Shown: positions 3,620 through 40,300 of the stretch, in pieces | Numbering within the stretch: the stretch's first letter is position 1 | How the letters are laid out: each line of letters opens with the position of its first letter | Assembly (NCBI GenBank): GCA_002841115.1 | Contig: PHEC01000005.1 | Coordinates: forward strand, 1 to 47,934 | Source of the DNA: Alphaproteobacteria bacterium HGW-Alphaproteobacteria-6 | Lineage (GTDB): Bacteria; Pseudomonadota; Alphaproteobacteria; Rhodobacterales; Rhodobacteraceae | DNA length: 47,934 bases | Reading direction: 5' to 3' | The notes under the pieces: generated by a model | Databases searched by the model: none | Seen by the model: only the letters and a program-made list of their open reading frames with translations | What the model was told of the DNA's origin: nothing | Program-made: the position numbers and the translations under genes

Positions 3620-5533
<1,914 letters not shown>

Positions 5534-6242: not shown

Positions 6243-6425
6243 GCGATGGCCGCGGTGCCGCCGCCGCCGCAAGGCGCCTGGCCATTGATCGGGCCGGCGC
6301 CGGCCGGTCCGGTGATCAGGGCCCGCCGCCCGCCCGGGTCGAATTCCTGCCGTGTCACCGGTTCCCCCTTGCCCGCCACCCGCCGCGGGCGGTTCGGCCC
6401 CGGTCCTGCCGGCCCCGTTCTTGTT

Positions 6426-6469
6426 AAAAACCGCCGGGCGCTGTCAAGCGCGCCGGTCAGCGCCCGGCG
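6426..6469 (-). terminator. Rho-independent terminator overlapping the 3' end of the KpsM-like gene
   Basis: A perfect 12-bp stem, CGCCGGGCGCTG (6432-6443) with CAGCGCCCGGCG (6458-6469), loop of 14. In the minus-strand RNA the stem is followed by GGUUUUUAAC (U-tract 6430-6426). The stop codon of the permease gene (6459-6457) lies at the stem-loop boundary, so the stem includes the last sense codons. The form is classical for intrinsic termination. Confidence 0.8.
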
Positions 6470-7278: not shown

Positions 7279-7332
7279 CCGGACTCTGCGCTTTCGCTAA
7301 GGCCTGCGGCGGGCGATTTTCGCCGGGAAATC

Positions 7333-7361
7333 TTGCCGATCCCTTGACGCGGCATCATAAG
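7333..7361 (+). promoter_or_regulatory. Candidate promoter of cysQ-kdsB
   Basis: TTGCCG (7333-7338), a 17-base gap, and CATAAG (7356-7361), about 45 bp before the GTG start of cysQ, inside the divergent region with the permease gene. Both boxes are partial matches; moderate to low confidence. Confidence 0.3.
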
Positions 7362-7406
7362 GGGGCAGAGCCGTTCGATCAATCCTTGCCGCCAGGGGGC
7401 CGCGAC

Positions 7407-8201: not shown

Positions 8202-9001
8202 TGTCCGTCCTGATCGTCATTCCGGCGCGGTTTGCCTCGACGCGCTATCCCGGCAAGCCGCTGGTCGACCTTGTCGGCGCGACCGGTGAGGCGCGCAGCC
8301 TGATTCGACGCAGCTGGGAGGCGGCGGGCCAGGTCTCGGGCGTCGCCCGCACCGTCGTCGCCACCGACGACGGCCGCATCCGCGATGCCGCCCGGGCCTT
8401 CGGCGCCGAGGTGGTGATGACCTCGGATCAGTGCCGCAACGGCACCGAACGCTGCGCCGAGGCCTATGACCGGCTGGGCGGCGGCTTCGACATCGTCGTC
8501 AACCTGCAGGGCGACGCGCCCCTGACCCCGCCCTGGTTCATCGAGGATCTGGTTGCCGGCCTTGCCGCCGACCCGGTCGCCGAGGTCGCGACCCCGGTGC
8601 TGCGCTGCGACGGCCGCGCCCTGAACGGTTTTCTCGACGACCGCCGTGCCGGCCGGGTCGGCGGCACCACAGCGGTCTTCGGCCGCGACCGCAAGGCGCT
8701 TTACTTCTCGAAAGAGGTCATCCCCTACACCGGCCGCCGCTATCCCGACGATGCCGAAACCCCGGTCTTTCACCATGTCGGGGTCTATGCCTACCGGCCC
8801 TCGGCGCTGGCCGCCTATCCGCGCTGGGAACCGGGGCCGCTGGAAGGGCTGGAAGGGCTTGAACAGCTGCGGTTTCTGGAACGCGAACGCCCGGTCCTGT
8901 GCGTCGAGGTCGATGCCCGGGGCCGCCAGTTCTGGGAGTTGAACAACCCCGAGGACGTGCCGCGGCTGGAAGCGATGATGGCAAGGATGGGGATCGCCTG
9001 A
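8198..9001 (+). CDS. kdsB: 3-deoxy-manno-octulosonate cytidylyltransferase, divergent KdsB-type
   Basis: Activates Kdo (or a close nonulosonate-like sugar) as the CMP-sugar for lipopolysaccharide or capsule assembly. The 267-residue protein has the nucleotide-binding start VIPARFASTRYPGKPL, SDQCRNGTERCAEA (SGTDR-like block) and NLQGDAPLTPP. Typical KdsB has QGDEP at this last place, so the acidic residue is replaced by alanine. There is also an unusual insertion (VGATGEARSLIRR) after PGKPLVDL. The gene is translationally coupled to cysQ (4-bp overlap; two ATG codons in a row, 8198 and 8201). The neighbouring KpsM-like permease suggests a capsule-dedicated copy. The family is certain; the exact sugar is not. 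Confidence 0.8.
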   Translation: MMSVLIVIPARFASTRYPGKPLVDLVGATGEARSLIRRSWEAAGQVSGVARTVVATDDGRIRDAARAFGAEVVMTSDQCRNGTERCAEAYDRLGGGFDIVVNLQGDAPLTPPWFIEDLVAGLAADPVAEVATPVLRCDGRALNGFLDDRRAGRVGGTTAVFGRDRKALYFSKEVIPYTGRRYPDDAETPVFHHVGVYAYRPSALAAYPRWEPGPLEGLEGLEQLRFLERERPVLCVEVDARGRQFWELNNPEDVPRLEAMMARMGIA

Positions 9002-21662: not shown

Positions 21663-23672
21663 TCAGCCGGTGGCGATGCGCGGCCGGCCCTGCGCTGTCA
21701 CCCGGATCCGCGCCTCGATGAACATCGCCGCGCCCTCGACCGGAACCTCCGACAGGTCGCGGCGGATGCTCAGCCGGATGTCCGCGACCCCTTCGGCACG
21801 GGCGCGGGCGGCGGCATCGGCGCTTAGCGCCGCCTCAAGTGCTGTCATCGCCGCCCCGGGCTCACTGAACCGCTGCGGCCCCTCGGGCAGATGGGCGACG
21901 TAAAGGCCGGGGCCGGGGCTGGTGACGACACCATCGGCATGGATCGCCACCTGTCCGACCACCGCGCCGATCGCATTGGCCACGCCGGCATGGTCGGGCA
22001 GCACCATCCGCGCGCCCAGCCGCTCGCCGACCGCGCCGTAATAGAAGGGCGCCGAGGCACCAAGCCCGATCACCGGCACCCCAAGCCCGAGCGTGACGCG
22101 GATCGCCCCGTCGTGCCGGTCGAGCCCGGCCCGGGTCAGCGCGTGGCGCGCCAGCACCTCGGGCGATGCGCCCCAGTCGGTCCTGTCCTCGGCAAAGGCG
22201 GCCTCGAGCAGGCAATCGACGGTCTGCGCGGTCAGCTGATCGACGATGGCCTGCGCCAGCGCCGTCCCGTCCGCCGCGATCCGCATCCCCCGCCCGTTGC
22301 GCCGCCGCGCAAAGAGCGTCAGCGCCTTGTCCGCCGCCCGGCCGTCCCAGGCGTCCAGCCGCCCGAGACCATGCGAGGCATCCGAGGGCGTCAGCCCGGC
22401 GATCATCACCTGCCCGCGCGCCACCAGCCGCATCAGCGCCGCCAGATCGCTGCGCATCCGCAAGGCATCGGGCAGCGGCACCGGCCCGGCGCCCAGCCGC
22501 TCGGCCACCGCCGCCTCGCGCCCGCTCAGCCCTTCGGGCAAAGCGCCCTGCCACATCGGCAGGGCAAAGCGGCCCTCGTGTTCGCCCGGCGCCTCTCGTG
22601 CCAGCCAGCCGTCCAGCGCATCATGCACCAGCCCCGGCCAGTCGCGCGCCGCCAGCGCCACCGGCACCAGCCGCCGCGGCCCCAGCGAGAGCCGGGTTTC
22701 AAGCCCGTCGAGAAGCTGCACCTCGCTGTCGCCGCCCAGCCCGGTGGTGCGCATCGCCACCGCCTCGACCATGGTGCGAAAGGCGCCGACCCGCGCGCCC
22801 TCGGGGTCGATCGCCGGCCTGCCGGCACGCAGCAGGCAGACATCGGTGGTGGTGCCGCCGATATCGGCGACCAGCGCATCGCGCTCGCCGGTCAGCCAGC
22901 TTGCCCCGGCGATAGAGGCGGCGGGGCCCGAAAGGATCGTCTCGATCGGGTGTTCGCGCGCCAGTGCGGCCGAGATCAGCGCCCCGTCGCCGCGCACCAC
23001 CATCAGGGGCGCGTCGATGCCGCGCGCCGCCATATGCGCCTGACAGGCGCTGATCAGCCGGTCGATCATGCCGACCAGCCGCGCATTCAGAACCGCCGTC
23101 AGCGCCCGGCGCGGCCCGTTCAGCCCGGCCGACAGCTCGTGCGACGAGGTGACCGGCAGCCCGGTCAGCCGCCGGATCAGATCGCGCGCCAACAATTCAT
23201 GCGCCGGGTTGCGGGTGGCGAAACTCGCCGCCACCGCGAAACCGCTGATGCCGGCGGGCAGGGCGGCGATCTCGGTCTCCAGCTGTGCCAGGTCAAGCGC
23301 CGTCACCTCGGCGCCGGAATGCTGGTGCCCGCCGGCAAGCAGGATCACCGGATCGCCCCTCAGCGCCTCTTCCAGCCCGGCCCGGGCCAGTTCCGCCGCC
23401 TGAAAGCCGATGAAGACCAGCGCCACGCGCCCGCCCTGGCCCTCGACCAGCGCATTGGTCGCCAGCGTCGTAGACAGCGACACCATCGCCACCTCGGCCG
23501 CCTTGATGCCGGCGCCGTCGATCGCCGCGTCGATCGCCGCACCCACCCCGGGCGCAAGATCCGGCCGCGTCGTCAGCGCCTTGGCCGAGGCGATCACCCG
23601 GTCCTCGCCCTCGTCAAGGATCACCGCATCGGTATAGGTGCCGCCGGTATCGACGCCGAGAAGATATGCCAT
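21663..23672 (-). CDS. HyuA-type hydantoinase/oxoprolinase family protein
   Basis: A 669-residue ATP-grasp-like/actin-fold hydantoinase A/oxoprolinase subunit. The family opens cyclic amides (5-oxoproline, hydantoins) or carboxylates ketones at the cost of ATP. Signatures: LLGVDTGGTYTDAVIL at the start, SLSTTLATNALVEGQGG, VRGDGALI, SGPAASIAGASWL and VADIGGTTTDVCLL. The usual HyuB partner is not next to it, and the protein is not fused to one. GMC gene lies 9 bp upstream, so it ends the catabolic operon. The substrate is unknown; a ring-opening or amide-cleaving step of an N-methylated compound is a guess. Confidence 0.85.
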   Translation of the reverse strand: MAYLLGVDTGGTYTDAVILDEGEDRVIASAKALTTRPDLAPGVGAAIDAAIDGAGIKAAEVAMVSLSTTLATNALVEGQGGRVALVFIGFQAAELARAGLEEALRGDPVILLAGGHQHSGAEVTALDLAQLETEIAALPAGISGFAVAASFATRNPAHELLARDLIRRLTGLPVTSSHELSAGLNGPRRALTAVLNARLVGMIDRLISACQAHMAARGIDAPLMVVRGDGALISAALAREHPIETILSGPAASIAGASWLTGERDALVADIGGTTTDVCLLRAGRPAIDPEGARVGAFRTMVEAVAMRTTGLGGDSEVQLLDGLETRLSLGPRRLVPVALAARDWPGLVHDALDGWLAREAPGEHEGRFALPMWQGALPEGLSGREAAVAERLGAGPVPLPDALRMRSDLAALMRLVARGQVMIAGLTPSDASHGLGRLDAWDGRAADKALTLFARRRNGRGMRIAADGTALAQAIVDQLTAQTVDCLLEAAFAEDRTDWGASPEVLARHALTRAGLDRHDGAIRVTLGLGVPVIGLGASAPFYYGAVGERLGARMVLPDHAGVANAIGAVVGQVAIHADGVVTSPGPGLYVAHLPEGPQRFSEPGAAMTALEAALSADAAARARAEGVADIRLSIRRDLSEVPVEGAAMFIEARIRVTAQGRPRIATG

Positions 23673-23681
23673 GTGTCGCCC

Positions 23682-25337
23682 TCAGCGCGCGCCTTCGAGG
23701 ATGCGTTCCGCGCCGATCCAGCCGACAAGGATGCTGGGCGCATTGGTATTGCCACCGATCAGCGTTGGAAAGACCGAAGCGTCGCAGACGCGCAGGCCCG
23801 TGACGCCGCGCACCCTCAGGTCGGGGTCGAGGGCCGAGGTCGCCGCATCGCGCCCCATCCTGACCGTGCAGGACGGGTGATAGACCGTGCCCGACCGGGC
23901 GCGGAAATCGGCGATCAGGTCTTCGTCACCCTGCACCTCTGGACCCGGGCGCAGTTCCTCGGCGATCAGCGACCGGATCGGCGCCTGCGCCGCGATCCGG
24001 CGCAGGAATTTCACCGCCAGCAGCATCTCGGCCACGTCGTGATCGGTGGAATAGGCATTGGCCACGATCCGCGGATGGGTGAAGGGGTCGGCACTTTTCA
24101 GGGTGATCGCGCCCCGGCTCGTCGGGCGGCAGTTCGACAGCCCGATCGACATCCCCGAGAACGGGTCGGGGGTCAGCAGCGGCCGTTCACCCACCCGCGG
24201 GATCAGGGTCGAAAACGCCTGAAAATAAAGCTGCATGTTGGGGCGCGGCAGGTCGGGCGCGGTGCGAAAGAACCCGCCGGCGTGGTTGATCGACTTCGCC
24301 AGCGGCCCGGTCCCGGTCAGCAGGTATTTCGTCCCGCTGAGCACCTTGCCCCACCAGGGCCGCAGGATGTCGTTGTAGGTCGGCACGGTCATCGCCCAGG
24401 TGTAGTTCAGGCCCTGATGGTCGCAAAGGTTCTGCCCGACCCGCGGCGCATCGGCGACGACCTCGATTCCGTGTTCGCGCAGATGGGCGGCGGGTCCGAT
24501 GCCTGACAGCATCAAAAGCTGCGGTGAGGCCACGGCGCCGGCCGACAGGATCACCTCGGAATCGGCTCTGATCCGGCCAGAAACGCCCTTGCGGCGGTAT
24601 TCGACACCCACAGCACGGCGGCCTTCAAAAAGCACCCGCGTCACCTGCGCATCGGTCAGCACGGTCAGATTCGGCCGCTTCATCGCCGGGCGCAGGAAGG
24701 CCCGCGCCGCCGAGTTCCGCCGCGCCTTGCGGATCGTCATCTGGTAGATGCCGGCACCCTCCTGCCGGGCGCCGTTGAAATCGGCGTTGCGGGCCAACCC
24801 GGCGGCCTCGGCCGCGGCGAGGAAGGCCCCGACCAGCGGATGCAGGTCGCGCCGGTTGGCCGAGATGAAAAGCGGCCCGCCCCTGCCGCGCCAGTCGTCG
24901 CCGCCGGCCTCGTTGTCCTCGATGGCGCGGTAGGCGGCAAGCACGGCCTGTCCGCCCCAGCCCGGACCGGCCGCGGCCTGCCAGTCGTCGTAATCGCTGG
25001 CGTGCCCGCGGATCCACACCATTGCGTTGATCGAACTCGATCCGCCGAGGATCTTCCCCCGCGGCCAGTGGTCGCGGTTGCCGGCCAGGCCGGGGTCGGG
25101 TTCGGCCGCATAAAGCCAGTTGACCGCCGGATCGTGGAACAGCTTGCCGTAGCCAAGCGGCATCTGCACATAGAACCGCCGGTCGCTGCCGCCGGCCTCG
25201 ATCACCAGCACCCGGTGCCGGCCGCTCGCCGACAGCCGCTCGGCCAGGACGCAGCCGGCCGAACCCGCGCCGACGATGATGTAATCGAATGCCGCCCCGT
25301 CCACGTCGCGTCCCCGCCTGCCCTCGTTCCTTCCCAT
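23682..25337 (-). CDS. GMC family oxidoreductase (choline/alcohol dehydrogenase-like)
   Basis: A 551-residue FAD enzyme that oxidises alcohol groups. The Rossmann motif FDYIIVGAGSAGCVLAERL is followed by the FAD loop (VIEAGGSD), GGSSSINAMVWIRGHASDYD, the GMC signature around LSAGAVASPQLLMLSGIGPA, and the catalytic histidine near YHPSCTVRMG and its asparagine in the final GGNTNAPSILVG. Substrate pocket cannot be read. A GTG at 25304 (MDGAAFDYI) is an alternative start. It is in the same series as the HIBADH-like gene (51-bp gap) and the HyuA gene (9 bp). Confidence 0.87.
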   Translation of the reverse strand: MGRNEGRRGRDVDGAAFDYIIVGAGSAGCVLAERLSASGRHRVLVIEAGGSDRRFYVQMPLGYGKLFHDPAVNWLYAAEPDPGLAGNRDHWPRGKILGGSSSINAMVWIRGHASDYDDWQAAAGPGWGGQAVLAAYRAIEDNEAGGDDWRGRGGPLFISANRRDLHPLVGAFLAAAEAAGLARNADFNGARQEGAGIYQMTIRKARRNSAARAFLRPAMKRPNLTVLTDAQVTRVLFEGRRAVGVEYRRKGVSGRIRADSEVILSAGAVASPQLLMLSGIGPAAHLREHGIEVVADAPRVGQNLCDHQGLNYTWAMTVPTYNDILRPWWGKVLSGTKYLLTGTGPLAKSINHAGGFFRTAPDLPRPNMQLYFQAFSTLIPRVGERPLLTPDPFSGMSIGLSNCRPTSRGAITLKSADPFTHPRIVANAYSTDHDVAEMLLAVKFLRRIAAQAPIRSLIAEELRPGPEVQGDEDLIADFRARSGTVYHPSCTVRMGRDAATSALDPDLRVRGVTGLRVCDASVFPTLIGGNTNAPSILVGWIGAERILEGAR

Positions 25338-25388
25338 GCGCGCCGCCGCCCCGCCGCCCCTTTCGCGACAGCAAAGGTCGCTCGCCGG

Positions 25389-26288
25389 CTATTCCAGCCG
25401 CGAAGGAAACCCCGGCGCCCTGAGATCGGTGCCAAGCAGGTCCTCCAGCACCTTCGCGATCATCGGCGATTGCGCCGCACCGCCATAGGCCGCCCTGGCC
25501 GCGACATAGGTCTGCTCGGTGGCCGCCGCGAGGTCGAGAGGCACCCCGAACTCGCGCCCGAATGCCAGCGCAAAGCCAAGGTCCTTCAGCGCCAGGTCGA
25601 TCGAAAAGGCGATGTCGTAGGAGCCGTTGAGGATCAGCGCGCCTTCCGTCTCGTGCACGAATGAATTGCCCGACGAGGCGGCAATCGCCTGCCAGGCTTG
25701 CCCAAGGTCGAGCCCGCCACGCTTCGCCAGCATCAGCGCCTCGGAACAGGCCTTCAGATGGATGAAGGCCAGCATGTTGGTGATCACCTTGATCACCGCC
25801 GACGCGCCCAGCGGCCCCATGTGGAAGATCCGCTTGCCCATCGCCGCCATCGCCGGCCGGTGCAGTTCGACCAGATCGGCATCGCCGCCCGGCAGCATGG
25901 TGATCTGCCCCTTCGCGGCCAGATGCACGCCGCCGGTCACCGGCAGTTCCAGCATCCGCACCCCCGCCGCCTCGGCGATCCGCGCCAGCCTGAGCACGTC
26001 GTCGCGGCCAAGCGTCGACATCTCGATCCAGGTCGCCCCCGGCTTCATCGCCGGCAGGATCGCCGCCAGCACCCTTTCCGACACCATGGGCGAGGGCAGG
26101 CAGGTGATGACGTGATCGACGCCTGCCGCAAGGTCGGCGGCACTCACCGCCCAGCGGGCGCCGCCGGCGACCAGCGTCTCGGCCGCCGCCGGGTCGAGGT
26201 CATGCACCGTCAGCCCGAACCCCGCCCGCATCAGGCAGGCCGCGCAGTTCGCCCCGAGATTACCAAGTCCGATATAGCCGTAATGCAC
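25389..26288 (-). CDS. NAD(P)-dependent dehydrogenase of the 3-hydroxyisobutyrate dehydrogenase family
   Basis: A 299-residue beta-hydroxyacid dehydrogenase. The N-terminal YGYIGLGNLGANCAACLMRAG is the dinucleotide-binding site; SAADLAAGVDHVITCLPSP, then ELPVTGGVHLAAKGQITMLPGG (the substrate-binding DAPVSGG-like block) and KVITNMLAFIHLKACSEAL (with the catalytic Lys) follow. The GTG at 26288 is preferred: GGGAG lies just upstream and translation begins at the dinucleotide fold; the ATG at 26315 abuts the mttB stop without a ribosome site. It could oxidise a 3-hydroxy acid or aldehyde-derived intermediate of the operon's pathway; the true substrate is unknown. Confidence 0.82.
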   Translation of the reverse strand: MHYGYIGLGNLGANCAACLMRAGFGLTVHDLDPAAAETLVAGGARWAVSAADLAAGVDHVITCLPSPMVSERVLAAILPAMKPGATWIEMSTLGRDDVLRLARIAEAAGVRMLELPVTGGVHLAAKGQITMLPGGDADLVELHRPAMAAMGKRIFHMGPLGASAVIKVITNMLAFIHLKACSEALMLAKRGGLDLGQAWQAIAASSGNSFVHETEGALILNGSYDIAFSIDLALKDLGFALAFGREFGVPLDLAAATEQTYVAARAAYGGAAQSPMIAKVLEDLLGTDLRAPGFPSRLE

Positions 26289-26315
26289 CGCGATCTCCCG
26301 AAAACCGTCTCTCAT

Positions 26316-27869
26316 TCAGCGGAAAAAGATGTTGTAGTCCGCCCGGATCGCCGCATCGATCTCGGGCGCGATCTGCATTCCCGCCTTCGCCAGGATATCG
26401 TTCTTCCGCGCGATTGCCCGATCCAGCAGCATCGGCCGGCCGGCCTCGACCCATTCCTTCGGGCTCATCCGATTGGCCGTAGTCGGATAGACATATTCGG
26501 TCTGCATCAGCCTCAGCGTCTGATCCGAACCGAGGTAATGGCCCGGCCCGCCCAGGCAGACCTCCTTCATCACCTCGATCGAGGTCGAATCCTCGGTCAC
26601 CTCGATGCCCCGCACACAGCGCAGCACCTGCCCGAGGATATCGTCGCCAAGAACCAGGCTCTCAAGGCAGAAGCCGAGAAGCGAGGCATGCATCCCCGCC
26701 GCCTCATAGACCATGTTCAGCCCCGAAAGCCCGGCCAGAACGTTGGTGATGCCCTGCTCCCAGCCCGCCTGCATGTCGGGCAACTTGGAATCGCTGATCC
26801 CCGCCGCCGCACCGCCGGGAAGCCCATAGAACCGGTGCATCTGCGCACAACCGGCGGTCAGCAGCGCCTGTTCGGCCGAACCCCCCGACATCGCGCCAGT
26901 GCGCAGGTCCGAGACGAAGGGCCAGGTGCCGAAGACCGCCGGATGCCCCGGCGCCATCGCGTTGACATAGACGACCCCGGCAAGACATTCCGCCACCGCC
27001 TGCACGATGGCCAGCGCGATCGGCGCCGGCGCCGTCGCCCCCGCCTGACCCGCACTCAAAAGCAGCACCGGCATGCCGCCCCGGATGCAGGCTTCCATGG
27101 TGATGCAGGCCTCCTCGGCGAATTTCATCGGCGGCACGACGAAGCAGTTGGAGTTCGAGATGAAGGGCCGCGCCCGCCACGCCGCCTCGCCGCCGGCGAT
27201 GCGGTGGATCATCCCGAACGAAGGCGCCACATGCGCGGGCTCGCTGAACGAGGTGCCGACATGTTTCGTCGTCCCCGCGCAGCAGGCGTAAAGCGTGTTG
27301 AGGTCCATCTCGAGGTTGTCGATCACGTCCCGGCAGACCATCGCGCGCTGGAAGAAATGAACGTTGTCAAGAGTATGGGTGATCCGCGCCGCGTCATAGA
27401 GGTCCTGCGCGGTGGACTCGCGGTAGGTATTGGTCGCGAGGTCCACGATATGCACCGCGGCGCCGGCGGTGCCGAAATGGACATTCGAGCCGGTCAGATG
27501 CAGGTCATGCTTCGGATCGCGCCCGTAGAGCGTGATGTCGCGTGCCGCCAGCGCCAGCATGTCCTCCACGAGGGCGCGGGGAAAGCGGATGCGCCCGTCC
27601 TCGCCCTGCACCGCCCCGGCGCCGGTCAGGATCGCCACCCCCGACTTCGGCGCCTGCGAAAGCCCGATCACTTCCAGCGCCTCCAGCGCCGCGGCATGGA
27701 TCCGCGCCATCCCCGCTTCGGTCAGCGGCTTGTATTGTCCGCCCGGCAGCCCGGCCCGGATCGGCCGCAACGCCTCGGCAAGCGGCGCCGCCCGCGCCGC
27801 CCGGCGCGCCTCGCGCCCGCCCGCCCTTGCCGCCCGCCGCGGCCCGCACTTCAGCGCATCGTCCGACAT
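26316..27869 (-). CDS. MttB-family methyltransferase, non-pyrrolysine type
   Basis: A 517-residue protein of the trimethylamine methyltransferase (MttB) superfamily. Members transfer a methyl group from methylamine or quaternary amines (for example glycine betaine, proline betaine, carnitine) to a corrinoid protein. No in-frame amber codon exists, so it is the non-pyrrolysine (MtgB-like) type. Typical blocks: GGQYKPLTEAGMARIHAAALE, HLTGSNVHFGTAGAAVHIVD, and YGLPGGAAAGISDSKLPDMQAG, ending in AEIDAAIRADYN-like sequence. No corrinoid protein or corrinoid methyltransferase is in the window. The operon places it next to two folate-domain FAD dehydrogenases, so the methyl acceptor could differ from the classical one. 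Substrate is inferred only as an N-methylated compound. Confidence 0.85.
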   Translation of the reverse strand: MSDDALKCGPRRAARAGGREARRAARAAPLAEALRPIRAGLPGGQYKPLTEAGMARIHAAALEALEVIGLSQAPKSGVAILTGAGAVQGEDGRIRFPRALVEDMLALAARDITLYGRDPKHDLHLTGSNVHFGTAGAAVHIVDLATNTYRESTAQDLYDAARITHTLDNVHFFQRAMVCRDVIDNLEMDLNTLYACCAGTTKHVGTSFSEPAHVAPSFGMIHRIAGGEAAWRARPFISNSNCFVVPPMKFAEEACITMEACIRGGMPVLLLSAGQAGATAPAPIALAIVQAVAECLAGVVYVNAMAPGHPAVFGTWPFVSDLRTGAMSGGSAEQALLTAGCAQMHRFYGLPGGAAAGISDSKLPDMQAGWEQGITNVLAGLSGLNMVYEAAGMHASLLGFCLESLVLGDDILGQVLRCVRGIEVTEDSTSIEVMKEVCLGGPGHYLGSDQTLRLMQTEYVYPTTANRMSPKEWVEAGRPMLLDRAIARKNDILAKAGMQIAPEIDAAIRADYNIFFR

Positions 27870-27909
27870 CGCCGTCTCTCCCTGAAAACCCCCGGCCTTC
27901 TTCGTTGCG

Positions 27910-27953
27910 AAAAAACCCTCGGGGGGATCCCGGGGGGCAGAGGGCCCCCCGGG
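27910..27953 (-). terminator. GC-rich stem-loop and T6 run between the first FAD/GcvT gene and mttB
   Basis: CCCGGGGGGC (27929-27938) pairs with GCCCCCCGGG (27944-27953), 10 bp, loop of 5. In the minus-strand RNA it is followed after 13 bases by UUUUUU (27915-27910). It resembles a second element at 30446-30466. Since it sits inside the operon, it may be a partial terminator or a dispersed palindromic element. Confidence 0.5.
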
Positions 27954-27959
27954 CTGCCA

Positions 27960-30404
27960 TCACATCCGCACCCGCAGACCTTCGGGGTCATACATCGGCC
28001 TCAATGACATCTCTGCCGCCACCCGCCGCCCGGCGATCTCGATCTCGTAGGCCGAGGCCAGCAGATCCTCCGCCCGCTCGCCCCTGCAGGGCAGATAGCC
28101 CATGCCGATCGCCGCGCCGAGGTGATGGCCGTAAGCGCCCGAGGTCAGGTGGCCGACGATCCGGCCGTCCCGCACGACGGGTTCGTTGTGATAGACCATC
28201 ACCTCCGGGTCCGAGAGACGAAACTGCACCAGCCGCCGCTCCAGCCCCGCCTCCTTCTTGCGCAACACCGCATCGCGGCCGATGAAGGCGGGCTTCGCCA
28301 TCGCCACTGCAAACCCCAGGCCCGCCTCCAGCACGTGATCCTCGGAAGTGATGTCATGGCCGAAATGGCGGAACGCCTTCTCGATCCGGCAGCCATCCAT
28401 CATGTGCATGCCGCAAAGCTTCAGCCCGACATCGTCCCCTGCCTCCCGCAGCACCTCGAAGACATGGCCGGCCATGTCCGAGGACACATAGATCTCCCAC
28501 CCGAGCTCGCCGACATAAGAGACCCGGTGCGCCCGCGCGAGACCCATGCCGATCTCGATCTCGCGCGCCCACCCGAACGGGTGGCCCGCGTTCGAGAAAT
28601 CGTCGGGCGAGACCCGGGCCATCAACGCGCGCGCCTTCGGCCCCATCACCGCCAGCACGCCCTCGGCGGCGGTCACATCGGTCAGCACCACGCTGAAGTC
28701 ACCGAGATGCCGGCGCATCCAGGCCTGATCCTTCGGCCGCGTCACCGCCGGGGTGACGACCAGATAGGCGGTCTCGGAAAGCCGCGTCACCGTCACATCC
28801 GCCTCGATCCCGCCCCTGCTGTTCAAAAACTGGGTATAGACGATCCGCCCCGCCGGCACCGCAACATCCGCACCGCAGAGATGGCCAAGAAAAGCCTCCG
28901 CATCGCGCCCCTCGACCCTGATCTTGCCGAAGCTGGACATGTCGTAAAGGCCGACACCCTCACGGATCGCCCGGTGCTCCTCGGCGACATTGCCGAACCA
29001 GCTCTGCCGGCCCCAGGAATACTCATAGGCGCGCACCTGCCCCGGCCCGGCGAACCAGTTCGCCCGTTCCCAGCCGCCGATCTCGCCAAAGACCGCGCCC
29101 TCGGCCGCGAGATGCGCATGAAACGGACTGCGCCGCACCCCGCGCGCCGTGGCCTTCTGCCGATAGGGAAAATGATCGGCGTAAAGCAGGCCCAGCGTCT
29201 CTTTCGAGCGCTCGAAAAGATAGCGCCGGTTGCCCTGGAAGGGCTGGTTGCGCCCCACGTCCACGTCGGAAAGGTCGAAGGGCTTCTCGCCCGTCTCCAT
29301 CCAGTCCGCCAGCGCCATGCCGGCACCGCCGGCCGACTGGATGCCGATCGAGTTGAACCCGGCGGCAACCCAGAAATTGTCGACCTCCAGCGACTGGCCA
29401 AGGTTGTAAGCGTCATCCGGGGTAAAGCTTTCCGGCCCGTTGAAGAAGGTATGGATGCCGGCCTCGGCCAGCATCGGCAGCCGGTTGACCGCGCGCTCCA
29501 GGATCGGCTCGAAATGGTCAAGGTCCTCGGGCAGCTGGTCAAAGCAGAAATCCTCGGGGATGCCCGCCATCCCCCAGGGCTTGGCATCGGGCTCGAAGGC
29601 GCCGAGCAGATATTTCCCGGCATCCTCCTTGTAATAGGCGCATTCATCCGGCACCCGCAGCACCGGCATCTGCGAAAGGCCGGGGATCGGCTCGGTGACG
29701 ATGTAGAAATGCTCGCAGGCATGCAGCGGCACGGTCACCCCGGCCATCCGGCCCACCTCGCGGCCCCACATCCCGGCGCAGTTCACTACATGTTCGGCCT
29801 GAATAGACCCTGTTTCGCCGCCTCGCTCCCAGGTCACGGCAGTCGCACGCCGCCCGGCAACGCGCACCCCCGTCACCTTCACGCCCTCGGCCACCAGCGC
29901 CCCGCGGGCCCGCGCCCCCTTGGCCAGCGCCAACGCGATGTTGGCCGGATCCCCCTGCCCGTCGGTCGGCAGCCAGACCCCAGCCTTTACCCCTTCGATA
30001 TTGAGATGCGGATATCGCGCCTTCACCTCGCTGGGCGACAACTCCTCCACCGGCACCGCGAAGCCCCGCGCCATCGAGGCCGAACGAAACAGCTCCTCCT
30101 TGCGCGCCTCCGTCAGCGCGACCGAGATCGAGCCCACGGTGCGCATCCCGGTGGCCAGCCCGGTCTCCGCCTCCAGCCCGCGGTACAGATCGGCGGAATA
30201 TTTCGCCAGCCGCGTCATATTGGCCGAAGCCCTGAGTTGCCCGATCAGCCCGGCGGCATGCCATGTCGTGCCTGAGGTCAGCTGCCGGCGCTCCAGAAGC
30301 ACCACATCGGTCCAGCCAAGCCTGGTCAGGTGATAGGCCACCGAACAGCCGACCACCCCGCCGCCGATGATCACGCATCTTGCCCTTTGTGGCAGGTCAG
30401 ACAC
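27960..30404 (-). CDS. FAD-dependent oxidoreductase with C-terminal GcvT domain (dimethylglycine/sarcosine dehydrogenase family), paralogue 1
   Basis: An 814-residue flavoenzyme with two halves. The N-terminal DAO fold (about 1-380) has CVIIGGGVVGCSVAYHL and TSGTTWHAAGLIGQL, where the His is the expected covalent flavin attachment residue of this family. The C-terminal half (about 430-810) is a folate-binding aminomethyltransferase (GcvT) domain: GVGLYDMSSFGKIRVEG, VSYVGELGWEIYVS, RIEKAFRHFGHDIT. Family members oxidise N-methyl groups of dimethylglycine or sarcosine and pass the one-carbon unit to tetrahydrofolate. A GTG start (30404) has AAAGGCG upstream. It lies 71 bp downstream of its paralogue at 30476. 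Confidence 0.9.
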   Translation of the reverse strand: MSDLPQRARCVIIGGGVVGCSVAYHLTRLGWTDVVLLERRQLTSGTTWHAAGLIGQLRASANMTRLAKYSADLYRGLEAETGLATGMRTVGSISVALTEARKEELFRSASMARGFAVPVEELSPSEVKARYPHLNIEGVKAGVWLPTDGQGDPANIALALAKGARARGALVAEGVKVTGVRVAGRRATAVTWERGGETGSIQAEHVVNCAGMWGREVGRMAGVTVPLHACEHFYIVTEPIPGLSQMPVLRVPDECAYYKEDAGKYLLGAFEPDAKPWGMAGIPEDFCFDQLPEDLDHFEPILERAVNRLPMLAEAGIHTFFNGPESFTPDDAYNLGQSLEVDNFWVAAGFNSIGIQSAGGAGMALADWMETGEKPFDLSDVDVGRNQPFQGNRRYLFERSKETLGLLYADHFPYRQKATARGVRRSPFHAHLAAEGAVFGEIGGWERANWFAGPGQVRAYEYSWGRQSWFGNVAEEHRAIREGVGLYDMSSFGKIRVEGRDAEAFLGHLCGADVAVPAGRIVYTQFLNSRGGIEADVTVTRLSETAYLVVTPAVTRPKDQAWMRRHLGDFSVVLTDVTAAEGVLAVMGPKARALMARVSPDDFSNAGHPFGWAREIEIGMGLARAHRVSYVGELGWEIYVSSDMAGHVFEVLREAGDDVGLKLCGMHMMDGCRIEKAFRHFGHDITSEDHVLEAGLGFAVAMAKPAFIGRDAVLRKKEAGLERRLVQFRLSDPEVMVYHNEPVVRDGRIVGHLTSGAYGHHLGAAIGMGYLPCRGERAEDLLASAYEIEIAGRRVAAEMSLRPMYDPEGLRVRM

Positions 30405-30445
30405 TCATTTCGCCTTTCATCTTGGACCAAATACCGCGCGGGGGT

Positions 30446-30466
30446 CCGGGGGCGCGAAGCCCCCGG
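30446..30466. repeat. GC-rich palindromic element between the two FAD/GcvT genes
   Basis: CCGGGGGC (30446-30453), loop GCGAA, GCCCCCGG (30459-30466); it lies 10 bp after the stop of the upstream gene (30476). Its surrounding pattern (GGGGGTCCGGGGGC...GCCCCCGGC) resembles the element at 27921-27953. No T-run is attached. Confidence 0.6.
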
Positions 30467-30475
30467 CCGCCACCG

Positions 30476-32938
30476 TCACGCACGCAGCCTCAGGTTTTCC
30501 GGATCCCACAGCGGGCCATCGGGCTGGACCGTGGCGCGGTGGCGTTCTCCATGGATCTCCACGTCGATATCGGTGCCGGGCACCGCAAGATCGGCGCGCA
30601 GCATGGCCAGCGCCACCGAGGCCCCGACCCGGTAGCCCCAGGCGCCGCTCGTCGTCTCGCCGACGATCTCGTCGCCGTGCCAGAGCGTCGACATATGGGG
30701 CGCATCGGCCTCACCAGCATCGACGAGCAGCGTCACGAAGCGCTTTCTCACCCCGCGCTGCTTCTCGGCCAGAAGGGCGGCCTTGCCGGGAAAGTCCTGC
30801 GGCTTGTCGAATTTCACGAACCGTTCCAGCCCGCCCTCCAGCATCGAATAATCGGTCGAGAGGTCGCCCTTCCACGCGCGATAGCCCTTCTCGACGCGCA
30901 GGGAATTCAGCGCCCACATCCCGAAGGGCCGCAGCCCATGCGCCTGCCCCGCCTGCCAGACCGCATCGAAAACGGCGGTGCTATCGGGCGCCTTCGTATG
31001 GATCTCCCAGCCCAGCTCTCCGGCAAAGGACACCCGCACCAGCCGCGCCCAATGCCCGGCGATCTCGGTCGCCTGATGCGTTAGCCAGGGCTGGCTCAGG
31101 TCGGCGTCGCAGATATCGGACAGCAGCGCACGAGAGGCAGGCCCCGCGAGGATCTGCGTCATGTAATCCTTCGTTCGGTTGGTGAGGGTGACGCCCGCCA
31201 CGCCCTCCAGACGCCGCGCCAGCAACTCATAATCGTGCCACTCGGCGGCGGCGGCGGTGATCAGCGTCATCAGGTCGTCGCGGTGGCGCACCACCGACAT
31301 CTCGGTCAGGATACGGCCCCGCGCATCGGCGAAATAGACCAGCCCGATGCGCCCCACGCGCGGCACCACGCCGGTGATCTGCGCCGCAAGCCATTCCGCC
31401 GCCCCCGCCCCCTCGATGTTGAACCGCGAGAAACCGGGCAGGTCGAGGATACCGCAAGCATCGCGCACCGCCTCGCATTCTTGCCGGATGCGCGGCTCCC
31501 ACGGCCCCGCGCGACCCCATGTCTGGGTGGCCTCCTCCGAGGTATCATCCCCCGGCTGCGCGAACCAGTTGGCGCGCTCCCAGCCGTTATAGGCGCCCAT
31601 CTGCCCGCCCAGCGCCTTGATCCGGTCATGGATCGGCGAAAGCTTGCGGTCAGGCGCGGCGGGCCATCGCGCCATCGGAAAATGCATGGCATATTCGTGG
31701 CCGTAGACTTCCTTGCCCTTGGCGATGCAATAGTCGCGGTCGGTGTAGTCGGTGAAGCGGCGCGGGTCGCAGGACCACATGTCCCATTCCGTCGCCCCCT
31801 CGGTCACCCATTCCGCCAGCACCTTGCCGGCGCCCCCCGCCTGGGCGATGCCGAAGGTGAAGACGCAGGCCTCGAACGCATTCGCCACCCCCGGCATCGG
31901 CCCGATCAGCGGATTACCGTCGGGCGCATAGGGGATCGGGCCGTTGATGACCTTGGAAACCCCGGCGGTGCCCAGAAGCGGCACCCGCGCCATCGCATCC
32001 TCGATATAGGGTTCCAGCCGGTCGAGATCGTCGGGGAAAAGCTGGAAGCTGAAATCCTCCGGGAAGGGGTCGTCCGGCGTCACCCAATGCGCCCGGCAAT
32101 TCCTCTCGTAGGGGCCAAGATTGAAGCCGCTTTTTTCCTGCCGGAGGTAATAGGAGGTATCGACATCGCGCAGCAGCGGCAGTTTGTGGCCCACCTCTCT
32201 CGTCCAGGCCTCGATCTCGGCGATCGGCTCGGACAGAAGATACTGGTGGCTCATCACCATCATCGGCACGGTGCGGCCGCCGAAGGGTCGGAACCATTCG
32301 CCGACCTTCTGGGCATAGTAGCCGGCGGCATTCACCACGATTTCGGCCCGGATAGAGCCTTTTTCGGTGTGGATCACCCATTCGCCGCCCTCGCGCCCGA
32401 CCCCTGTTGCCGGGGTGTGGCGCAGGATTGCAGCACCCATGTCGCGCGCCCCCTTCGCCAGCGCCTGGGTCAGCTGCGCCGGGTCGATGTCGCCGTCGGC
32501 CGGATCAAAAAGCGCACCCTTCAGGTCATGCAGTTCGAGGAACGGATACTTGCCGCGGATCTCGTCGACGCCGAGAACCTCGAGCGCCATCCCCTGATAG
32601 CGCCCCATCCCCCTGGCGCGGGCAAACTCCTGCATCCGCTCCTTCGAATGGGCCAGCCGGACAGAGCCGGTGACGTGGTAGTTCATCGGATAGCCGACCG
32701 CCTCGCCGAGGCCGCGGTAAAGCTCGGTCGAATAGCGCTGCATGTTCATCAGCGACCACGAGGTCGAGAAGGTCGGCACATTGCCGGCCGCGTGCCAGGT
32801 GGAGCCCGCCGTCAGCTCGTTCTTCTCCAGCAGAACGCAGTCGGTCCAGCCCGCTTTCGCCAGATGGTAAAGCGCCGAGACGCCGACCGCGCCCCCGCCG
32901 ATGATCACCACCCGCGCCGTCGATGGTGCCCTGCTCAT
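30476..32938 (-). CDS. FAD-dependent oxidoreductase with C-terminal GcvT domain (dimethylglycine/sarcosine dehydrogenase family), paralogue 2
   Basis: First gene of the catabolic series, 820 residues. N-terminal FAD site RVVIIGGGAVGVSALYHLAKAG and TAGSTWHAAGNVPTF with the presumed covalent-flavin His; the middle DPADGDIDPAQLTQALAKGA and AAGYYAQKVGEWF are typical. A C-terminal GcvT half (about 430-815) contains CGILDLPGFSRFNIEG, FAGELGWEIHTKAP and LRVEKGYRAWKGDLS. The ATG at 32938 has GGGAGG upstream; the frame before it (to 33004) is in the intergenic regulatory region. The paralogue at 27960 shares the layout but differs widely, so the two probably act on different methylated intermediates. 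Confidence 0.9.
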   Translation of the reverse strand: MSRAPSTARVVIIGGGAVGVSALYHLAKAGWTDCVLLEKNELTAGSTWHAAGNVPTFSTSWSLMNMQRYSTELYRGLGEAVGYPMNYHVTGSVRLAHSKERMQEFARARGMGRYQGMALEVLGVDEIRGKYPFLELHDLKGALFDPADGDIDPAQLTQALAKGARDMGAAILRHTPATGVGREGGEWVIHTEKGSIRAEIVVNAAGYYAQKVGEWFRPFGGRTVPMMVMSHQYLLSEPIAEIEAWTREVGHKLPLLRDVDTSYYLRQEKSGFNLGPYERNCRAHWVTPDDPFPEDFSFQLFPDDLDRLEPYIEDAMARVPLLGTAGVSKVINGPIPYAPDGNPLIGPMPGVANAFEACVFTFGIAQAGGAGKVLAEWVTEGATEWDMWSCDPRRFTDYTDRDYCIAKGKEVYGHEYAMHFPMARWPAAPDRKLSPIHDRIKALGGQMGAYNGWERANWFAQPGDDTSEEATQTWGRAGPWEPRIRQECEAVRDACGILDLPGFSRFNIEGAGAAEWLAAQITGVVPRVGRIGLVYFADARGRILTEMSVVRHRDDLMTLITAAAAEWHDYELLARRLEGVAGVTLTNRTKDYMTQILAGPASRALLSDICDADLSQPWLTHQATEIAGHWARLVRVSFAGELGWEIHTKAPDSTAVFDAVWQAGQAHGLRPFGMWALNSLRVEKGYRAWKGDLSTDYSMLEGGLERFVKFDKPQDFPGKAALLAEKQRGVRKRFVTLLVDAGEADAPHMSTLWHGDEIVGETTSGAWGYRVGASVALAMLRADLAVPGTDIDVEIHGERHRATVQPDGPLWDPENLRLRA

Positions 32939-32955
32939 CACCCGCCCTCCCGACT

Positions 32956-32965
32956 TGTCGCGACA
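32956..32965. promoter_or_regulatory. Palindrome TGTCGCGACA at the predicted operon start
   Basis: A 10-bp perfect palindrome just downstream of the predicted -10 box of the FAD/GcvT operon, where the transcript would begin. A regulator or polymerase block here is possible; short palindromes also occur by chance. Confidence 0.35.
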
Positions 32966-32966
32966 G

Positions 32967-32995
32967 AGTATCGGCGCGCATCGATGCGCTTTCAA
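32967..32995 (-). promoter_or_regulatory. Candidate promoter of the methylated-amine operon
   Basis: TTGAAA (32995-32990), 17 bases, GATACT (32972-32967), about 29 bp before the first gene's ATG. A 14-bp perfect palindrome GCGCATCGATGCGC (32976-32989) fills the spacer. Predicted start of transcription is near 32960. Confidence 0.55.
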
Positions 32996-33015
32996 TTCGT
33001 CCACCGCCGGTTTAT

Positions 33016-33034
33016 TGATCGGAAAATCCGATCA
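33016..33034. promoter_or_regulatory. Perfect 19-bp palindrome, probable LysR-type operator
   Basis: TGATCGGA-AAA-TCCGATCA is perfectly symmetric, and its inner part TCGGAAAATCCGA has the T-N11-A form typical of LysR regulators. Its centre (33025) lies about 65 bp upstream of the predicted start of the divergent operon (near 32960), the usual distance for a LysR recognition site. Its last base touches the ribosome site (AGGAG, 33034-33038) of the lysR gene, which would allow autorepression. Confidence 0.7.
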
Positions 33035-33044
33035 GGAGCCGGCC

Positions 33045-33965
33045 ATGCAGATCGAACTGATCGAGACCTTTCTGGATCTGTGCGAAACCCGCAGCTTCAA
33101 CCGCAGCGCCGACCGGCTCGGGGTGACGCAGTCGACGGTCTCGGGCCGGATCCGCGCGCTTGAATCGCTGCTTGGCCGCCGGCTGTTCACCCGCTCGCGG
33201 GCCGGGACCGACCTGACCACCGAAGGGCTGCGGTTCGAGCCGCATGCCCGCAGCCTGCGCCACGGCTGGACCGAGGCACTGCACGCGACCCGCGACGGCG
33301 GCCTTGCCGCCGCGACCATGCGGATCGGTATCCAGAACGACCTGGTCGGCGGCCACTTCAGCGGCCTGATCGCCGACTTCCGCGCCGCCATGCCCGACAC
33401 CGCCTTCTTCTTCGAGGCCGACTATTCGGTGCAGATGTGCAGCGATCTGGTGACCGGGGCCGCGGATTTCGCCATCCTCTTCTCGCCGCGGATCCATCCC
33501 GACCTGCATTTCGAGACCCTGGGCGAGGTCACCTACCGGATGGTCTCGACCGCTGCCGACCGGCTGGCGGCGGTCGATCCGGCGACCTATATCCTGGCCA
33601 ATTACGCGCCGGCCTTCGCCCAGAGTCATGCCGCCCTGCATCCCGGCCTGACCGCGGCATCGCTGTCGATCGGCCAGAACGCGGCGATGGTGGCGCTGTT
33701 GCGGGCGCTGGGCGGGGCGGCCTATGTGCTTGGCCAGTCGGCCGACGATCTGCTGCGCGACAGGCTGTGCCGCCCGGTCGCCGATGCGCCGCCGATCCCG
33801 CAGACGATCTTTGCCGGCGTCAACATGCGTCATCGCCACCGCAGCCCGCAGCGCCGGCTGATGCAGATCCTGCGCCGCCATTTCGGCACCCAGCCGCCCG
33901 CGCCGCGGACCCGGGGCCGCCAGGCGGAGTGTTTCAGGCCCTCGCCCGAAGGTGACGGCGATTGA
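33045..33965 (+). CDS. LysR family transcriptional regulator
   Basis: A 306-residue regulator. An N-terminal winged helix-turn-helix (about 1-60; IETFLDLCETRSFNRSADRL, then TQSTVSGRIRALESLLGRRLFTR) is followed by a periplasmic-binding-protein-like effector domain (about 85-285; MRIGIQNDLVGGHFSGLI). Start ATG at 33045 with AGGAG 6 bases upstream. It is divergent from the FAD/GcvT operon, the standard arrangement for a LysR activator of the neighbouring pathway; the inducer is presumably the pathway's substrate or an intermediate. The C-terminus is unusually Arg/His-rich (NMRHRHRSPQRRLM). Confidence 0.9.
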   Translation: MQIELIETFLDLCETRSFNRSADRLGVTQSTVSGRIRALESLLGRRLFTRSRAGTDLTTEGLRFEPHARSLRHGWTEALHATRDGGLAAATMRIGIQNDLVGGHFSGLIADFRAAMPDTAFFFEADYSVQMCSDLVTGAADFAILFSPRIHPDLHFETLGEVTYRMVSTAADRLAAVDPATYILANYAPAFAQSHAALHPGLTAASLSIGQNAAMVALLRALGGAAYVLGQSADDLLRDRLCRPVADAPPIPQTIFAGVNMRHRHRSPQRRLMQILRRHFGTQPPAPRTRGRQAECFRPSPEGDGD

Positions 33966-37327: not shown

Positions 37328-37382
37328 CAGGGGCCGACGTGCCAGCATCCGGGCGTAACCCGTGCCGCCGAGGAGCCCCGCC

Positions 37383-40300
37383 ATGCGCCACCTGACCTTC
37401 GCCCTGTGCCTGTCGCTCCTTGTGCTGCCGGCGGGCATTGCGACCCGGACGGCGGCCCAGACGGCGGGCGCGGGCGATCTGGTGCCCGAACGGCGCGCCG
37501 TCCTGAGCGCCGATGTCGATTATCCCGGCAATGACCTCAGGGCGATCTTCGACACCTCGCTGCGGTCCTGTCAGGCGGCCTGCCTGGCCGACGCGGCCTG
37601 CCGGGCCTTCACCTACAACAGCCGCGCCGGATCGTGTTTTCCGAAGTCGGAGGCCGGCGCGGCACAGCCCTATGCCGGCGCGGTCTCGGGCGTGATCGTG
37701 ACCGCGCCACCGGGCCTGGCAGAGCGTGCGCGCCGGCGCGCGGCTGACCTCGCCTTTGTCGATCCCGCCGATCTTGATGCGGCGCTGGCACTGGCCCGCG
37801 AGCTGTCGCTTCAGGGGTCCGGCGCGGACGAGGCGACGCTCAGGGCCATCGTCGCCCGGGCCCGGCAGGGCGGTGATCTGGTCGCGGCCCGCGATGCCCA
37901 GGCCGGGCTGACCAGCCGGACCGATGCGGCCGGCGACTGGTCCGGGCTGGGCCGCATCCTGCTTGAGCTTGCCGCGGCTCCGCGCGGCGGCGGGTCGGGC
38001 GCCGCGCGCGAGCTTGCCGGGCAGGCGACCGCCGCCGCGCTGAATGCCTATCTGCGCGCCGACGAGGCGGCAGAGCGGACCGCGGCGCTTGGCCTTCTGG
38101 CCGAGGCTTTCGCGGCGACCGGGCGCGGTGCGCTGATGATCCCGGCGCTGCGGCTGGCCAGGGCGATCGCCGATGATCCGGCCAGCGCCGCCACCCTGGC
38201 CACCGCCCTGGCCGAGGCACAGGGCCGATACGGGTTTCGCATCACCGGCCACGAGGTTCAGAACGACCTGGCCGCGCCGCGTCTTTGCGCGGTCTTCAGT
38301 GCGCCGGTCCGCGGTGGCGGCACCGATTTTGCGCCCTTTGTCGGGCGCACCGAACCGGCGCTGACGGTCGTGGCCGAGGGCAATCAGGTCTGCGTCGAGG
38401 GGGTGCGTCACGGCCAGCACTACACCTTGACCTTCCGCGCCGGCCTGCCGGCCGCGGATGACGAGACCCTGGCCCGTGACGTGACGCTTGCGCTTTATGT
38501 CCGCGACCGCAGCCCCTCGGTGCGTTTCCCCGGCCGGGCCTATGTGCTGCCGCGCGCGGCCGGTGCCGGCATCCCGGTCGAGACGGTGAATGCGGCGCGG
38601 CTTGACCTGATGCTGCACCGCGTATCGGACCGCAACCTGGTGCGGGTCATGCAGGATGGCAGCTTCGGCCGGCCGCTGGACTACTGGTCGGCCGAGGTCT
38701 TTCGCGGCGAGATCGCCGAGGAGATCTGGCGCGGCAGCGCCGAGGTCGCCTCGCAGATCAACCGCGACATGGTGAACCGGCTGCCGCTGGACGAGGCGCT
38801 GGCCGGGCGCGGTGCCGGTGTCTATGTGCTTCAGGCCGCGCTGCCGGGGGCCGATCCCTATGACAGCCCCGCGGCGATGCAATGGTTCGTCGTCTCCGAC
38901 CTCGGGATGACGACCCTGTCGGGCGGTGACGGCACCCATGTCTTCCTGCGCTCGCTGGCCGATGCCTCGGCGGTGCCGGGTGCTGTGCTGACGCTGGTGT
39001 CGCGCGCCAATGCGGTGATCGGCACCGCGACCACCGATGCGGCGGGCCACGCGGTCTTCGGGCCGGCGATGACGTCCGGAAGGGGCGGCGCCGCGCCGGC
39101 ACTGATCACCGCGACGGCCGGCGATGACATCGCCTTCCTGCCGCTTGACGATCCGGCCTTTGATCTGTCGGACCGCGGCGTTGCCGGCCATGATCCGGCG
39201 CCGCCGATCGACCTTTTCCTGACCACCGACCGCGGCGCCTATCGCGCCGGCGAGACGGTTCATGCCACGATCCTGGCCCGCGATCCCTTGATGCGCGCGA
39301 TCGAGGGGCTGCCCCTGACCCTGCGGCTGGTCCGCCCCGACGGGGTGGAATACAGCCGCCTGATGCCGGGTCACGCCGGCGCCGGCGGCCATGTCGCGGC
39401 GGTGCCGCTGGCCGCCACCGCCCCGCGCGGGATCTGGCGCATCGAAGCCTTTGTCGAAGAGGGCAGGGTGCTTGCCTCGGAACCCTTCCTGGTCGAGGAT
39501 TTCCTGCCCGAACGGATCGACTTCACCCTGGATCTGCCCGAGGGGCCGCTGCGCGCCTCGGACCGGCCGGCGGTGGCAGTTGCTGCGCGCTATCTTTACG
39601 GTGCCCCCGGCGCCGGGCTGGCGATCGAGGGCGAGGTGCGGCTGTCCGCGGCGGCGACGGTCGCGGGCTTTGCCGGCTACCGCTTTGGCCGCCATGACGC
39701 GCCCTTCAGCCCGGTCGCCGACAGCCTGCCCGGCGGATCGCTGACCGACGCGGCCGGCAACGCGCGCCTTGTCGCGCCGCTGCCCGATCCTGGCCCCGAA
39801 GGGCGCCGCCCGCTCGAGGCCGCCTTCGTGGTCCGCCTCGCCGAAGGCTCGGGCCGGCCGGTCGAGCGGCGGATCAGCCGGCTGTTGCTGCCCGATACCC
39901 CGGTGATCGGCATCCGGCCGGCGTTTGACGGTGACACGCTCGCCGAGAACAGCGAGGCGCGTTTCGGGCTGATCGCGCTCGGGTCGGACGCAAGGCCTGC
40001 GGCGCTGGCGGTGCATTGGGTGGTCAACCGGATCGAGACCCATTACCAGTGGTATTCGCTTTATGGCGACTGGAACTGGGAGGCGACGCGAACCCGGACC
40101 CGGATCGCCGAGGGCGAGGCCATTCTGTCCGCCGCCGGGCCGACCGCGATTGCCGCCGCCGTCGGCTGGGGCGAATACGAACTGGTGGCCGAGGCCGCGG
40201 ATGGCAGCGGGGTGGTGGCCTCGGTTTCCTTCAACGCCGGCTGGTATCAGGCCGCCGACACCGCCGAGACCCCCGACACGCTGGAGCTGTCGCTTGACCG

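Follow-up and report, generated by a model that had tools for sequence, protein, structure and literature searches.

The genes for two FAD/GcvT dehydrogenases (FADa and FADb) and an MttB-family methyltransferase in the DNA studied here probably form the core of an aerobic betaine-demethylation module, in which the methyl group taken up by MttB would go to MtgC, a corrinoid protein encoded elsewhere in the genome. Judged from sequence comparison and gene order, this reading has a probability of about 0.7. Its simplest form has one methyl group leaving through cobalamin and two through folate.

In the first step, MttB, which is of the MtgB2 type, would move one methyl group from the quaternary amine to cob(I)alamin on MtgC. 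An MtgD-like protein would then hand the methyl to tetrahydrofolate, or MtgE would hand it to homocysteine, and a RamA-type protein would re-reduce the cobalt. In steps two and three, the two enzymes of the dimethylglycine dehydrogenase type are predicted to oxidize the two methyl groups that are left, one after the other; electrons would pass to FAD, and the GcvT half would load the carbon onto folate. The predicted series runs from betaine through dimethyl and monomethyl compounds to the amine, and three enzymes would fit three methyl groups. The betaine itself may be supplied by a choline-dehydrogenase-like GMC oxidoreductase at the locus and, in relatives, by an enzyme resembling betaine-aldehyde dehydrogenase.

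The operon and its proteins

The window (the whole stretch of DNA that was analysed, 47,934 nucleotides) is contig C124 of a draft genome of 3.77 Mb that is 87% complete. The earlier note had read six genes in one direction between 21663 and 32938; six co-directional open frames on the minus strand bear this out, and Pfam confirmed the family named for each of the six proteins. With FADa starting at 32938, the intergenic gaps are 71 bases (FADa–FADb), 90 (FADb–MttB), 0 (MttB–HIBADH), 51 (HIBADH–GMC) and 9 (GMC–HyuA). A gene for a LysR-type regulator (33045..33965, plus strand; PF00126 at residues 52–109, and PF03466), absent from the earlier note, diverges from the operon. Its open frame covers 32901–33965, and ATG 33045 was picked as the start from the position of the helix-turn-helix; if this start and FADa 32938 are right, 106 bases lie between the two genes.

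FADa (30476..32938, minus strand) and FADb (27960..30404, minus strand) each carry DAO, FAO_M, GCV_T and GCV_T_C domains in one chain by Pfam, as members of the dimethylglycine dehydrogenase family do. FADa matched dimethylglycine dehydrogenase 4pab with 567 bits and FADb matched 4p9s with 475 bits, both almost end to end. The FADa frame opens at GTG 33004 and its likely start is 32938; the sequence TWHAAG at residues 69–74, numbered from GTG 33004, is presumably the flavin-linkage motif.

The MttB protein (26316..27869, minus strand) matched PF06253 with 358.2 bits (cut-off 25) over profile positions 1–487 of 500, placing it in the superfamily. Its Ile358 aligns with Pyl334 (printed X) of archaeal MttB, and its score against trimeth_pyl, 328.5 bits, is below the cut-off of 525. 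The protein is thus of the non-pyrrolysine type, as had been proposed. The predicted structure of MttB (mean pLDDT 67, below 50 at residues 354–420) was not used for any reading, and the portions seen of PMC9842639, PMC8604678 and PMC12155760 gave no betaine-contact residues that could be mapped onto the protein.

Next comes a 3-hydroxyisobutyrate-dehydrogenase-like (HIBADH-like) NAD enzyme (25389..26315, minus strand; NAD_binding_2 and NAD_binding_11), for which every NCBIfam match was below its cut-off. The last two genes are accessory. The GMC oxidoreductase (23682..25337, minus strand; GMC_oxred_N and GMC_oxred_C) is choline-dehydrogenase-like, and the curated cut-offs do not make it BetA choline dehydrogenase: it scored 545.7 bits against PRK02106 (cut-off 605) and 460.5 bits against TIGR01810 (cut-off 732.1). 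The HyuA-like ATPase (21663..23672, minus strand) matched Hydant_A_N, and Hydantoinase_A over profile positions 1–145 of 291 only. Of the frames scanned in its neighbourhood, none matched a HyuB family, and the locus has no complete HyuA with a HyuB partner as in a HyuAB hydantoinase or oxoprolinase.

Two further features of the window were recorded. At 3887–5644 (plus strand) a strong Pfam match to NAD-GH lies opposite a 637-residue frame adjoining dnaJ, and we take it to be probably an antisense artefact of dnaK. At 37362–44971 (plus strand) the gene for a bacterial alpha-2-macroglobulin precedes that for a penicillin-binding protein carrying a BiPBP_C domain, an ordinary pair.

Gene order, the probable MtgB2 counterpart and the likely substrate

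The window MttB stands on a branch separate from the MtgB-like paralogues, with 26–28% identity to the four other MttB proteins of the genome. It scored 191.7 bits against MtgB of Desulfitobacterium hafniense (2qne), compared with about 400 bits for two of those four, the C274 and C171 paralogues. Against structure 4yyc, which we take to be a Sinorhizobium protein, the same two reached 598 and 713.5 bits, respectively, and the window MttB 140 bits. In a 77-row tree (midpoint root, bootstrap not fully settled, cut-off C173 paralogue left out), window-type and roseobacter-type MttB formed two clades in one strongly supported group (50 rows, 100/99), far from the genome's own C274, C171 and C62 paralogues.

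Two PF06253 proteins of Ruegeria pomeroyi, SPO2108 (MtgB1) and SPO2134 (MtgB2), increase on the N-osmolytes tested, and levels of SPO2134 are higher on glycine betaine, choline or carnitine (PMC12478193, in part). Its clade and the gene order in other Ruegeria genomes indicate that the window MttB is the probable counterpart of SPO2134. In genome G788, taken as Ruegeria sp. THAF33, the order is cimA, cysS, aminotransferase, outer membrane protein, MttB, NrdJ-like, PdxH, MtgC (26.7 kb on) and DUF1638; cimA, cysS, aminotransferase and NrdJ were named by eye, and PdxH and the outer membrane protein were confirmed by family match. Four MttB-family queries found no other match site in that 98 kb. 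Excerpts of the literature give SPO2133 as an outer membrane protein of 178 aa (PMC9938194), SPO2141 as pyridoxamine 5'-phosphate oxidase (PMC4334477), and SPO2134, SPO2160 and SPO2162 as PF06253, MtgC and DUF1638 (PMC12478193), and these anchors stand in the same order as their counterparts in G788. The MttB–MtgC gap was 26.2–27.5 kb in 14 of 14 further Ruegeria genomes, among the matches listed and with both genes on one contig; in G033 the two are on different contigs. Membership of the MtgB2 orthologue group was judged from the shared clade and this gene-order counterpart, not from the SPO2134 sequence itself.

A total of 138 MttB loci were mapped, not counting L070 and L076, fragments that were too short, and dropping three whose MttB DNA was identical to another left 135 for comparison. 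A neighbour was a gene whose centre lay at most 9 kb from MttB, with an identity cut-off set per gene and flanks of varying length. FADa and FADb were each found in 86 of the 135 loci, the HIBADH-like gene in 74 (identity at least 42%), LysR in 72 (at least 38%) and an aldehyde dehydrogenase (ALDH) in 48. Less frequent were a PEP-mutase-like gene (19/135), a homocysteine methyltransferase (11/135) and a Rieske gene like glycine betaine monooxygenase (2/135). GMC (8/135) and HyuA (7/135; identity at least 60% for each) are additions present in few relatives. The earlier suggestion that HyuA opens a ring or amide gains no support from this rarity and from the neighbouring frames without HyuB. 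FADa and FADb adjoin MttB in many relatives, down to 58–60% identity. FADa–FADb–MttB looks like an old core, because among 20 relatives below 68% identity with 6 kb upstream, 17 keep FADa and 14 keep FADb; HIBADH, GMC and HyuA look like later additions.

Neither FAD gene was nearby in 35 of the 121 loci with 6 kb upstream, mostly roseobacter-type loci beside cysS/cimA and Loktanella/Yoonia-like loci. In 18 genomes picked for MttB standing without FAD genes, FADa was found elsewhere in all 18, with 64–75% identity to the window FADa (other family members at most 41% among the matches listed). Fourteen FADa loci were fetched, 13 of them from picked genomes; FADb lay close beside FADa in all 13, and a homocysteine methyltransferase gene lay between the two in nine. 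The remaining one, G138 (L231, C2 75000–94500), has the FADa–FADb pair and no match to window MttB or MtgC, so the pair can presumably work without a window-type MttB. The order LysE–FADa–homocysteine methyltransferase–FADb at L227 matches SPO3402 (LysE) and SPO3398 (homocysteine S-methyltransferase; PMC4809877, in part) with SPO3400 (dimethylglycine dehydrogenase) and SPO3396 (sarcosine dehydrogenase; PMC4744692, in part). Gene order from these other genomes would place the roseobacter FADa where SPO3400 is and FADb where SPO3396 is. As given in the part of PMC4744692 seen, the names of SPO3400 and SPO3396 look predicted rather than assayed.

Some loci vary the arrangement. In several relatives, FADb and MttB are separated by a gene of the PEP-mutase family (L134 9175–10008 and other loci). 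On Sinorhizobium meliloti pSymB (L170, about 6364–8893), FADb was matched in three pieces with no gene listed; this strain may have a disrupted FADb gene, or the sequence may contain an error. A Rieske oxygenase adjoins a window-group MttB in a Rhizobiales isolate (L164 8368–9600) and in Rhizobium setariae (L167 11533–12765); the best match of the former was GbcA, a glycine betaine monooxygenase, below cut-off. First demethylases of two different kinds may thus coexist at such loci.

Glycine betaine is probably the substrate. It is the likeliest one because of the names of the counterparts, the increase reported for SPO2134 on N-osmolytes, and the resemblance of neighbouring genes, at this locus or in relatives, to choline, betaine-aldehyde and glycine-betaine enzymes, in every case below the curated cut-offs. 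The increase of SPO2108 (MtgB1) on N-osmolytes as well counts against this reading (PMC12478193, in part). For homarine, trigonelline or creatinine no gene evidence was found, and the titles and abstract openings of the homarine papers listed show no such operon.

The strongest alternative, a possible but unlikely one, keeps the corrinoid chemistry and changes the betaine (for example, to beta-alanine betaine or a carnitine-like compound), with the HIBADH-like enzyme and aldehyde dehydrogenases treating the side chain. Nearly all of the HIBADH-like and ALDH neighbours counted above belong to window-type loci, and the HIBADH-like gene, tied to window-type MttB and unexplained by glycine betaine, keeps a second betaine open. 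Window-type and roseobacter-type MttB, besides forming separate clades, coexist in genome G192 (L046 and L068) and so may differ in substrate. Sister MttB types with FAD partners adjoin different side-chain genes, which also favours another betaine. Nevertheless, two genomes of genus g4 (Loktanella/Yoonia records) with LysR–MttB–HIBADH have a roseobacter-like FADa–homocysteine methyltransferase–FADb elsewhere, which links window-type MttB with the pair presumed to be dimethylglycine and sarcosine dehydrogenases, and the resemblance of neighbours to glycine-betaine enzymes, even below cut-offs, counts against a different betaine.

G192 is a natural pair for substrate comparison. Two sister-type loci were also noted. 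On the R. pomeroyi megaplasmid NC_006569.1 (L171 14917–24237), a related MttB of 45% identity is accompanied by two FAD-dependent oxidoreductases, a class III aminotransferase and a thiamine-diphosphate enzyme. For the thiamine-diphosphate enzyme, sulfoacetaldehyde acetyltransferase came out best in NCBIfam (401 bits, cut-off 620); the cluster is perhaps a route for an N-methylated taurine. On Mesorhizobium plasmid NZ_AP023248.1 (L174), a sister MttB (42%) stands with one FAD-dependent oxidoreductase, near a glycine betaine ABC transporter.

The probable corrinoid partner

No corrinoid-protein family was matched in the 40 open frames scanned within the window, and MtgC was near MttB in none of the 135 loci, nor in any of the 111 that have flanks of 6 kb or more on either side. 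The genome has five MttB-family matches, that of the window included, but a single B12-binding_2 match. This is an MtgC-like protein of 233 aa on contig C288, which carries both a B12-binding and a B12-binding_2 domain and contains the sequence DIHDIGK. An MtgE-like protein is encoded close to it (592 bits, cut-off 338), as is what we take, by position, to be the DUF1638 partner. An MtgD-like protein lies on C148 (NF005719, a domain-type model, 406.4 bits, cut-off 259); the other PF00809 match of the genome is dihydropteroate synthase. A RamA-type activase is present in one copy on C3 (RACo_C_ter 282.2 bits, cut-off 27). Proteins of MtgC, MtgD and RamA type, as in the MtgBCD system, are thus all encoded. 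Since the B12-binding_2 match is single, no classical MetH was found in this 87% complete genome.

The earlier note had described an operon without a corrinoid protein, which holds for the window frames scanned and fails for the genome. It had proposed a genome search for corrinoid proteins and RamA-type activators, which gave one of each, and had named a co-regulated corrinoid-protein gene elsewhere as evidence against its view; of this, C288 bears out the presence of a corrinoid-protein gene elsewhere.

Portions of PMC12478193 describe a precedent in R. pomeroyi, in which one unlinked MtgC serves both glycine-betaine demethylation and methionine synthesis. R. pomeroyi requires MtgC (SPO2160) and MtgD (SPO1863) both to make methionine and to grow on glycine betaine, on which mtgC and mtgD mutants fail to grow even when methionine is supplied; no mtgB knockout is described in the portions examined. 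Where mtgC and mtgD are present, a bacterium often carries several PF06253 genes (as many as seven), and the authors suggest that diverse methylated compounds enter by the MtgC/MtgD route (PMC12478193, in part). With an unlinked MtgC and several PF06253 genes as precedent, an MttB gene that has no corrinoid gene beside it is expected in this bacterial group, and the absence of such a neighbour is uninformative on the methyl acceptor in these bacteria.

Co-occurrence was assessed in 390 Rhodobacterales genomes (window MttB at E ≤ 1e-60, MtgC at E ≤ 1e-50). The window-MttB group was matched in 241, with a best E of 8e-211 or better in 239; the other two, G179 and G232 (E about 1e-117), probably hold sister-type MttB only. 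MtgC was matched in 354 genomes, including all 241 with the MttB group, which was found in none of the 36 genomes without MtgC (20 of these among the genomes listed, the other 16 by elimination). Because MtgC is nearly universal in Rhodobacterales, the order-level test is weak alone and was repeated class-wide. In that set of 385 genomes, 43 had the MttB group and 81 had MtgC (E ≤ 1e-40); MtgC was present in 38 of the 43 versus 43 of the 342 others (Fisher p 1.8e-24, kinship ignored). Five genomes (G462, G475, G536, G634 and G713) had MttB matches below 50% identity only and thus hold sister types; setting these five aside leaves 34 of 38.

Five class-wide genomes have the MttB group and no MtgC match. 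G452, G459 and G580 are 64–82% complete. G563 is 93% complete, and its congener G658 has MtgC; G634 is 99% complete, and its MttB group match is fragmentary, with 40% identity. G452, G563 and G634 have one B12-binding_2 match each, inside frames of 753–1251 residues that were taken for MetH, and B12-binding_2 had no match in G459 or G580. The five exceptions, though few, count against the corrinoid reading, and G563 and G634 are unexplained.

A corrinoid-free methyltransferase, passing methyl straight to tetrahydrofolate, perhaps on the GcvT half of the FAD partners, would suit these two genomes and the lack of MtgC near MttB. As the main reading it was rejected because of the co-occurrence of MttB and MtgC, with G563 and G634 remaining as exceptions. 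The MttB protein moreover keeps the residues that do not vary among 12 aligned proteins from both branches, D365, Q367, E371, G441 and H444 included, and the partner gene is unlinked in the published system too (PMC12478193, in part), so that a corrinoid-free enzyme is very improbable. The different methyl acceptor considered previously is accordingly unsupported. By contrast, the aerobic, folate-coupled demethylation of a methylated amine, with the betaine class likely, is supported by the dimethylglycine-dehydrogenase-type partners, the MtgC, MtgD, MtgE and RamA-type proteins and the MttB–MtgC co-occurrence. A loose set of catabolic genes with no shared pathway would account for the scarcity of GMC and HyuA near MttB and is the least credible reading of all, given how FADa and FADb stay adjacent to MttB in many relatives, down to 58–60% identity.

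Comparison with known systems

Published work left two candidate MtgB proteins in R. pomeroyi (PMC12478193, in part). Gene order across Alphaproteobacteria points to MtgB2 as the candidate betaine enzyme, since its gene keeps company with those for the presumed dimethylglycine and sarcosine dehydrogenases. As a tentative extension, the divergent MtgB2 type, and not the type closer to the anaerobic MtgB, might carry out most methyl transfer from glycine betaine in aerobic Alphaproteobacteria. Window-type members would then have turned to a second betaine, with HIBADH, ALDH, GMC and HyuA recruited for the side chain of that betaine, and all would share one corrinoid hub. A literature search, whose scope excluded most subscription journals, preprints and supplements, found no description of the operon. 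The cluster belongs to an already known type of system, and what it contributes is the gene order that marks out MtgB2.

MtgB of D. hafniense (2qne, 9yce) belongs to PF06253 and is without pyrrolysine, as is the window MttB, which differs in its separate branch. FADa and FADb are alike to dimethylglycine dehydrogenase (4p9s, 4pab, 5l46) over nearly the whole length; unlike that single enzyme, two distinct members adjoin here and are presumed to take successive methyl groups. The closest parallel is the MtgBCD/MtgE system of R. pomeroyi DSS-3 (PMC12478193, in part), which likewise has a separate MttB-family donor, one shared unlinked MtgC and MtgD, MtgE and RamA types. The difference lies in arrangement: here the MttB, dimethylglycine-dehydrogenase-like and sarcosine-dehydrogenase-like genes form one cluster with LysR, HIBADH, GMC and HyuA, whereas in R. 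pomeroyi, to judge by the locus tags, they are scattered.
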